Shown piece after piece: positions 13,571-34,326 of a stretch of 64,000 nt of DNA. Made by a program: the position numbers and the translations under genes. Source of the stretch: Brachyspira hampsonii (lineage in GTDB: Bacteria; Spirochaetota; Brachyspiria; Brachyspirales; Brachyspiraceae); assembly GCF_002214805.1 (NCBI RefSeq), contig NZ_CP019914.1:2790001-2854000 (forward strand). The letters run 5' to 3'. Positions within the stretch are counted from its first letter, which is position 1, and each line of letters begins with the position of its first letter. The notes beneath the pieces are model-generated. The model was not told where the DNA came from, made no database searches, and worked only from the letters and a program-made list of their open reading frames with translations.

Positions 13571-13611
13571 TACTGAAATATTATTTTGACAAACTTTATG
13601 ATTTTCAGTAT
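13570..13611. repeat. 9-base inverted repeat around the Rpn promoter
   Basis: ATACTGAAA (13570-13578) and TTTCAGTAT (13603-13611) are perfect reverse complements. They enclose the -35 box and reach into the -10 box of the promoter at 13586-13614, so they could be an operator. The stop codon of the previous gene lies next to the left arm. Confidence 0.4.
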
Positions 13612-13614
13612 AAT
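13586..13614 (+). promoter_or_regulatory. Consensus sigma-70 promoter, predicted leaderless start
   Basis: TTGACA (13586-13591) and TATAAT (13609-13614) are both perfect consensus boxes with a 17-base spacer. The ATG of the Rpn gene begins 7 bases after the -10 box, where transcription should start, and there is no Shine-Dalgarno sequence. The full-length message is therefore predicted to be leaderless. Confidence 0.7.
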
Positions 13615-13620
13615 ATATTT

Positions 13621-14514
13621 ATGAGAAAAAATTTAAATACTGCAAAAACTTTTAATCCTTTAAATGATTATTTTATGCGTTATATGTTTGCAAAAGAGGG
13701 ACATGAGCATATATTAAAAAATCTCATTAATTCTGTGAGAATAGACTCTAATCAAGAGCCTTTTGAATATATAGAAGTTTTGAACACTTTTAATTTAAAA
13801 GAAAATGTTTTTGATAAAGAATCAATAGCAGATGTTAAGGCTAAAACTAAATCAGGCGAAACTATAATTATAGAAATACAAAGAATAGGCAACCATTCAT
13901 TTATATACAGAAGTTTATACTATTGGGCTAAAAATTATTTTACAAATTTAAAATCTAAGGATATATATTCTGATTTAACACCTGTAATAAGTATTAATAT
14001 TTTAGATTTTAATTTGATAAAAGATATAGATAAACCTCATAGCTGTTATTTTATTAAAGAGTTAGAAACCAATCATATATTAACTAATCATTTGGAAATT
14101 CATTTTCTTGAATTGAAAAAGTTCATTAATAATAGTAATTTATATGAAGGCTTATCAGATTGGTTTGAGTTTTTAAATTCTAAGGATAAATTGGAGGATA
14201 CTATGGAAATATTAGTAAAGAAAAATCCTATAATGAAAGAAGTATATGATGAATATAATAAATTTGTTAATAGCAATGATTTATATAATGGCTACAGTAA
14301 TTATGAAAGAGATTATTTTAATGTTCTAATGCTTAATGAAGAGCGTATAAAGGGTATAGAGGAAGGAATGAAAAAAGGTATAGAACAAGGTATTGAACAG
14401 GGAGAAAAAAATAAGGCATTATCTATAGCTAGAAGTCTTAAAAAATCAGGTTTGGATGTAAAATTTATAAGCGATAATACAGGATTAACTATAGAGGAAA
14501 TAGATAAACTTTAA
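13621..14514 (+). CDS. Rpn family PD-(D/E)XK nuclease (recombination-promoting nuclease / putative transposase)
   Basis: A 297-residue protein of the Rpn/YhgA-like family. The N-terminal FNPLNDYFMRYMF block is typical. The nuclease residues are Asp71 (in IADVKAK), Glu85 and Gln87 (IIEIQ). The C-terminal region carries GIEEGMKKGIEQGIEQGE repeats and a final helix-turn-helix-like ISDNTGLTIEEIDKL. Rpn proteins cut DNA and, in Escherichia coli, act as toxins with antiphage effect whose C-terminal part is also made separately as an antitoxin. An internal ATG with a strong ribosome site at 14203 fits that scheme. The paralogue at 33169-34133 is frameshifted. Confidence 0.87.
   Translation: MRKNLNTAKTFNPLNDYFMRYMFAKEGHEHILKNLINSVRIDSNQEPFEYIEVLNTFNLKENVFDKESIADVKAKTKSGETIIIEIQRIGNHSFIYRSLYYWAKNYFTNLKSKDIYSDLTPVISINILDFNLIKDIDKPHSCYFIKELETNHILTNHLEIHFLELKKFINNSNLYEGLSDWFEFLNSKDKLEDTMEILVKKNPIMKEVYDEYNKFVNSNDLYNGYSNYERDYFNVLMLNEERIKGIEEGMKKGIEQGIEQGEKNKALSIARSLKKSGLDVKFISDNTGLTIEEIDKL
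14203..14514 (+). CDS. Candidate intragenic short Rpn product (RpnS-like antitoxin)
   Basis: GGAGG (14193-14197) lies 5 bases before an in-frame ATG at 14203, residue 195 of the Rpn protein. Translation from here would give 103 residues: the C-terminal region with the GIEQG repeats and the final DNTGLTIEEIDKL segment, without the nuclease. This site is much better than the start of the full-length gene, which has none. In Escherichia coli, short Rpn forms made this way block the long form. That this one is made, and what it does, is inference. Confidence 0.45.
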   Translation: MEILVKKNPIMKEVYDEYNKFVNSNDLYNGYSNYERDYFNVLMLNEERIKGIEEGMKKGIEQGIEQGEKNKALSIARSLKKSGLDVKFISDNTGLTIEEIDKL

Positions 14515-33947: not shown

Positions 33948-34019
33948 GGTATAGAGAAAGGAATTAAACAAGGAATTAAACAAGGTATAGAACGAGGTAT
34001 AGAACGAGGTATAGAACAA
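33948..34019 (+). repeat. Six tandem 12-base units in the Rpn C-terminal coding region
   Basis: The units are GGTATAGAGAAA, GGAATTAAACAA (twice), GGTATAGAACGA (twice) and GGTATAGAACAA. Each encodes Gly-Ile-x-x in the -1 frame. The number of units could change by replication slippage without changing the frame, because 12 is a multiple of three. Confidence 0.85.
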
Positions 34020-34134
34020 GGAGAAATAAATAAAGCAAAAACTATAGCGTTAAATCTTAAAAATATTAATATGAGTATTGAAGATATAAGTAAAATGACG
34101 GGGTTAAGTATAGAAGAAATAGAGAGACTATGAT

Positions 34135-34289
34135 AAAAACTTGTGGGTGTCTAGCAAATTCGTATAATGCGTACAGATTCATTTGCTAGACCCAAAAAGC
34201 GAATAAGTTTTTATATATAAATAAAAATAAAAAACTTGTGAGTTCCTAATATTAGTAAGAATAGCATGTATTATTGCAAATAAGTTTTT
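34135..34289. repeat. Two tandem units framed by AAAAACTTGTG and AATAAGTTTTT
   Basis: Unit 1 spans 34135-34212 and unit 2 spans 34230-34289. Both start AAAAACTTGTG and end AATAAGTTTTT, whose AAAAACTT/AAGTTTTT ends can pair. Unit 1 also has a perfect 11-base inner stem, GTCTAGCAAAT (34149-34159) with ATTTGCTAGAC (34181-34191). The interiors differ otherwise. They fill the gap between the second Rpn gene and the hydantoinase gene and may act as a terminator. Confidence 0.55.
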
Positions 34290-34326
34290 TATAGTTAAAT
34301 AAAAGTTATAATTATAGGACTAGAAT

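Follow-up and report, generated by a model that had tools for sequence, protein, structure and literature searches.

A conserved in-frame internal start in a Brachyspira Rpn nuclease gene points to a candidate intragenic antitoxin

A full-length Rpn nuclease gene of the spirochaete Brachyspira contains a strong in-frame internal start signal, and this signal is conserved within the genus far beyond chance. The gene is probably a variant form of the Rpn-type gene-within-gene toxin–antitoxin, in which a long nuclease (RpnL) and a short form (RpnS) share one reading frame; we infer translation, toxicity, and neutralization from the sequence and by analogy with Escherichia coli. The RpnL/RpnS toxin–antitoxin itself is already known: in E. 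coli, the toxic long form of Rpn is bound and blocked by the short form, and the pair acts against phage (Zhong et al. 2023, PMC10327210). Features that appear from the sequence to be new are the occurrence of this arrangement in the PF12784 clade, a short form of ~100 aa (compared with E. coli and not with C. difficile), and a leaderless toxin start. The gene is located in a window of 64,000 nucleotides, the whole stretch of DNA analyzed, which derives from a complete 3.19-Mb Brachyspira genome (Table 1).

Table 1 Features of the rpn gene, with positions counted from the first nucleotide of the window
Feature	Position	Strand	Basis
rpnL, full-length Rpn nuclease, 297 aa	13621..14514	+	PF12784 E 5.5e-44, TIGR01784 E 2e-37
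Long-form promoter: TTGACA (13586-13591), 17-nt spacer, TATAAT (13609-13614)	13586..13614	+	12/12 consensus
Predicted leaderless RpnL start: 6 nt, then ATG, A = +1	13615..13623	+	Family spacing
Predicted catalytic motif D71 ... E85-I-Q87	13831..13881	+	Conservation and RpnA analogy
Internal Shine-Dalgarno GGAGG	14193..14197	+	Strong SD in 172/172 genus homologues
rpnS, predicted 103-aa short form from M195	14203..14514	+	Homologous Met with strong SD in 172/172
Four-residue repeats GIEE-GMKK-GIEQ-GIEQ in long helix	14353..14400	+	Sequence; lengths in 4-aa steps
C-terminal helical module, RpnA-S homologue	14401..14511	+	Profile match to 7TH0

Fold of the long form and its C-terminal module

The full-length protein exceeds the cut-offs of both family models (151 bits against 27.4 for PF12784 and 129.5 bits against 52.1 for TIGR01784), and the PF12784 nuclease model reaches residue 231. 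There are 22 PF12784 matches in the source genome and ~380 in the genus, distributed over 25 of 26 genomes. Relatives met in the genome scan include B. hampsonii, B. alvinipulli, B. innocens, and others, and the nearest homologue in another Brachyspira genome, that of B. hampsonii 30446, shares 98% identity. In an alignment of 67 Rpn sequences, Glu85 and Gln87 are invariant and Asp71 is conserved in at least 90%. By analogy with RpnA and from what is known of the PD-(D/E)XK fold, this D-ExQ set is predicted to provide the catalytic residues. Comparison of the whole protein using PADLOC gave no significant match.

In the AF2 model of the full protein, calculated with 67 homologues (pLDDT 90.5), the nuclease core is of the alpha/beta type and its final strand ends at residue 164. 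Linker helices follow at residues 176–217, and then a single long helix (residues 219–275) that bears the four-residue repeats and precedes two short C-terminal helices. Met195, at which the predicted short form begins, is found within linker helix 188–201 and is 50 residues ahead of the first repeat unit. The first-pass annotation placed the internal start exactly where the nuclease part ends. This placement is approximately correct, as the final core strand ends at residue 164, Met195 is in a linker helix, and the Pfam match continues past it. A search of the PDB for fold relatives of the full model was left unused because no match fell below E 0.001 (best match EcoO109I, E 0.085). Modeled alone, the short form is helical only (pLDDT 83, pTM 0.46).

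When the family profile is compared with the RpnA-S structure (PDB ID: 7TH0), residues 8–44 are matched with an E value of 2.7e-4. Short-form lengths in the genus range from 82 to 156 aa, save one frameshifted copy of 48 aa, and within each start type the differences in length are mostly multiples of 4 aa. The C-terminal modules are common to different N-terminal clusters: in 782 of 1517 pairs with an N-terminal identity of at least 85%, the identity of the C-terminal module is below 60%. Throughout the genus-wide rpn set, the C-terminal ~34 aa are swapped between paralogues whose nuclease parts are nearly identical, and such a swap would alter the specificity of toxin and antitoxin in one step. 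The window also contains a second PF12784 rpn gene (33169–33984), which has a leaderless-type start and an internal Shine-Dalgarno (SD) sequence, and in which a frameshift within the repeats cuts the short form to 48 aa.

Conservation of the internal start in intact and broken genes

The GGAGG of the first-pass annotation, situated 5 nt before the in-frame ATG of Met195 (14203–14205), was re-read in the sequence and is correct. This motif matches the anti-SD GGATCACCTCCTTT at the 3′ end of the 16S rRNA of the source genome. Here, an SD is considered strong at a duplex energy of −7 kcal/mol or lower. In 464 kb of the source genome, 2% of the internal Met codons in 328 genes are preceded by a strong SD, and 36 of these genes (11%) have at least one such in-frame ATG. 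Since 11% of genes have an equally strong one, a lone internal SD-ATG in a single gene is weak evidence. Two other Met codons were considered as internal starts and rejected: Met237 (14329), which is nearer to the repeats, is without an SD, and Met250 (14368) has a duplex energy of −5.8 kcal/mol at a site that is not conserved.

To survey the genus, as the first-pass annotation had suggested, a set of 172 distinct intact homologues from 26 genomes was used, in which the site was defined from the protein sequence alone. A strong SD is found at the homologous Met in 172 of these 172 genes, which are related and do not represent 172 independent cases, compared with 5 of 1089 other Met codons in the same genes. 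The SD is encoded through differing residues before the Met (LEDT, NKEVI, LEAS, KGED, and GGER), and the codons beneath it are fixed: Glu is encoded by GAG in 123 of 123 cases (94/94 and 29/29; genome GAG, 21%) and Leu by TTG in 41 of 41 (genome TTG, 22%). In a synonymous-recoding null with one representative for each of 17 clusters at 70% identity, the observed mean is −10.6 and the recoded mean is −5.3 (z −9.6). In the type D subfamily (34 genes), the homologous Met is missing, and a GGAGG or AGGAG is instead located 10–12 nt before the next conserved Met. The refuting condition named in the first-pass annotation, an SD-ATG conserved no further than the encoded residues demand, was checked in this way, and the reading withstood it: the signal is kept via different codons and residues and, in one subfamily, relocates with the Met. 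Based on its presence in all homologues and on the departure from synonymous recoding, the internal start signal is conserved far beyond chance. An origin of the SD by chance, or as a by-product of conserved residues, would be compatible with the 11% of genes noted above and with the KGED and GGER subfamilies, in which the residues alone yield a fair SD (null −7.0 to −9.3). Against the forced codons, the recoding result, and the variety of residues among subfamilies, such an origin is hardly credible.

The internal SD-ATG is also observed outside Brachyspira, where a strong SD-ATG 60–135 aa from the protein end was scored against codon-permuted controls. Among 54 PF12784 genes, mostly from other spirochaete families, 69% are positive (null 25%, z −12.5), and among 36 PF12784 genes, mainly from Bacillota, 72% are positive (null 28%, z −8.3). 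Because the remaining ~30% of non-Brachyspira PF12784 genes are without it, the strong internal SD-ATG is common beyond Brachyspira and not universal.

At least 27 copies with an interrupted long frame are present among the matches listed, some of them from metagenome bins, in which frameshifts can be errors. The short frame is kept in 26 of the 27 broken copies among the matches listed, which are not all independent (binomial p 2.6e-4 against one third). The strong SD is lost in 8 of these 27 listed copies, with some lesions hitting the SD itself, compared with 0 of 172 intact genes (Fisher 4e-8); when the hairpin-split group described below is removed, it is lost in 4 of 22 of the listed copies. 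This pattern would be expected if a strong short form is needed only as long as the nuclease remains functional. In several genomes, frameshifts fall just upstream of the internal SD and the short frame is open (L359, L360, L361, and L366).

Slowing of elongation has been proposed as a role for SD-like sequences, and in the AF2 model GGAGG sits at a domain border. It could then act by slowing ribosomes as they pass from the nuclease core to the coiled coil, which would aid folding, and not by initiating translation. This explanation is very unlikely, however, as GGAGG always precedes an in-frame ATG at a usable spacing and shifts with the Met in subfamily D, and the short frame persists in copies with a dead long frame. 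Initiation at the internal ATG is the preferred reading.

A further observation concerns a covarying hairpin of ~65–75 nt, with an A-rich left arm, a T-rich right arm, and a variable inner stem, that is often found in tandem. The left arm includes the final rpn codons and the TGA stop, and compensatory changes are seen in 12 of 20 pairs. In the window, copies are located downstream of the second rpn gene (34132–34215 and 34227–34292). The source genome contains 79 copies, many of them tandem. Most of these lie away from rpn, but an ordinary dispersed insertion without any link to rpn is doubtful, given that 43 of 171 rpn 3′ ends have the hairpin, compared with 0.45% of random windows. A search of four hairpin loci against Rfam gave no match, and the hairpin is a candidate terminator-like or REP-like mobile repeat. 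It splits five subfamily-C rpn genes (L367, L368, L369, L372, and L398, in genomes G025, G014, and G007), falling exactly after the nuclease part and before the internal SD. L367, L368, L369, and L372 stay in frame but gain an in-frame stop, such that the long and short forms become separate reading frames.

Promoter and start of the long form

In agreement with the first-pass annotation, which described a full-length start without a ribosome site, a strong SD is found at this start in just 1 of 168 family genes; the corresponding value for 328 background genes is 25%. A perfect TATAAT is located 3–10 nt upstream of the long-form ATG in 154 of the 168 family genes, with a spacing of exactly 6 nt in 135 of 168, and 107 of 156 have a −35 element that departs from the consensus at no more than one position. 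Among the background genes, a TATAAT near any of the first three ATGs is seen in 23 of 328 (7%), two of which are rpn genes; this arrangement is uncommon in the source genome and concentrated in rpn. The simplest reading of these sequences is that the long-form mRNA is leaderless in the genus, with the A of the ATG as +1. The SD at the full-length start is likely absent because the transcript is leaderless, a likely reason that was overlooked in the first-pass annotation.

If transcription were to begin upstream, with the TATAAT beside the ATG incidental, the long form would have a leader. Approximately 12 of the 168 genes are without the TATAAT-ATG arrangement, some having a longer leader. 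For the family, this possibility is nonetheless quite unlikely, considering the near-constant spacing of the TATAAT, the accompanying −35 elements, the missing SD, and the rarity of the arrangement in the background. As a general property outside the genus, a leaderless long start was rejected, since the long form has an SD at its start in many of the relatives. A search for an internal promoter in rpn revealed no sigma70-like signal exceeding the synonymous null.

Leaderless mRNAs in E. coli have a low translation efficiency and a different dependence on initiation factors and on stress (PMC9031893, PMC8485053). In Mycobacterium tuberculosis, toxin–antitoxin genes are likewise carried on leaderless mRNAs; leaderless transcripts make up ~25% of the total in that organism (PMC8485053), whereas the leaderless-type arrangement is uncommon in the source genome, with a concentration in rpn.

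Proposed function and relation to known Rpn systems

In the proposed mechanism, a single mRNA that starts at or beside the first ATG would bear two in-frame starts. Initiation at the first ATG, at the leaderless 5′ end of the mRNA, would yield RpnL, a PD-(D/E)XK nuclease that ends in a coiled-coil/helical module. From the internal SD and the ATG at 14203, RpnS (~103 aa) would be made, comprising the linker helix, the repeat helix, and the C-terminal module only. By the precedent of E. coli RpnA, RpnS may bind the same module in RpnL and thereby restrain the nuclease, and the work of Zhong et al. (PMC10327210) suggests a role against phage. Because the long start is predicted to be leaderless and the short start is SD-led, translation would be initiated in one mode for the presumed toxin and in another for the presumed antitoxin, and this contrast may set or shift the S:L ratio. 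The intragenic-antitoxin design that the first-pass annotation proposed for a spirochaete thus gains support from the conserved SD-ATG and the homology to 7TH0, with inhibition remaining a prediction.

As in E. coli RpnA-L/RpnA-S and other E. coli Rpn systems, a single gene contains a PD-(D/E)XK part, an in-frame internal SD-ATG, and, at the C terminus, a helical module that varies and bears four-residue repeats; the modules are homologous by profile. Likewise, a C. difficile rpn gene cloned in E. coli gives RpnS by way of a predicted RBS and start within the gene (PMC10327210). The Brachyspira gene differs from the E. coli systems in several respects. Its nuclease belongs to PF12784, whereas that of RpnA belongs to PF04754. 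At 103 aa, the predicted short form would be twice as long as the 49-aa E. coli RpnA-S, a difference that was missed in the first-pass annotation. In E. coli rpnA, an SD-like GAAGGA is located 6 nt before the long-form ATG, in contrast to the predicted leaderless start in Brachyspira. Published short forms start 8–20 residues before the repeats (PMC10327210), and the gene is called an RpnL/RpnS variant because Met195 breaks this rule of the published cases (C. difficile left out). Three observations are counted against the RpnL/RpnS reading: the short form begins ~50 residues before the repeats and not 8–20; no internal promoter rises above the null, unlike in E. coli rpn genes, which have internal transcription starts; and ~30% of the PF12784 genes outside the genus are without a strong internal SD-ATG.

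The internal start could also be real and give rise to an obligate subunit of the nuclease, rather than an inhibitor, as Cas11d is for Cas10d. Cas11d is a needed subunit and not an inhibitor, and the Cas10d and Cas11d proteins are unrelated to Rpn. In type I-D CRISPR, a large and a small product are likewise made from one gene by means of an internal start (cited in PMC10327210). The sequence evidence reveals a conserved internal product and not the activity of that product, and RpnA-L and RpnA-S co-purify as a complex (PMC10327210). In contrast, the E. coli short form blocks both cleavage and toxicity (PMC10327210), and the broken copies, which retain the short frame without a nuclease, are easier to reconcile with an antitoxin that acts on its own than with a subunit. 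A subunit role is considered unlikely, and the short form is treated below as an antitoxin.

How RpnL is set and released is listed as open by Zhong et al. (PMC10327210). One tentative suggestion, which is more doubtful than the toxin–antitoxin assignment itself, is that the two initiation modes form a sensor of translation mode, with the nuclease leaderless and the inhibitor made from a strong internal SD. If so, impairment of SD-dependent 30S initiation or of the anti-SD would reduce the inhibitor to a greater extent than the nuclease, and phage takeover, ribosome cleavage, and some antibiotics would be possible triggers. The toxin would then be freed without proteolysis of the antitoxin, which would explain RpnL release in this clade.

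The prior basis of the intragenic-antitoxin design consists of five genes of E. coli, a further E. coli gene borne on a plasmid, and a single gene of C. difficile. The present analysis adds a third phylum, in which a nucleotide-level selection signature is seen and a genome can contain up to ~40 copies, and the design apparently spans much of the PF12784 clade. Finally, the combination of a predicted leaderless long form and an SD-led short form would offer a concrete, testable mechanism for toxin setting and release.
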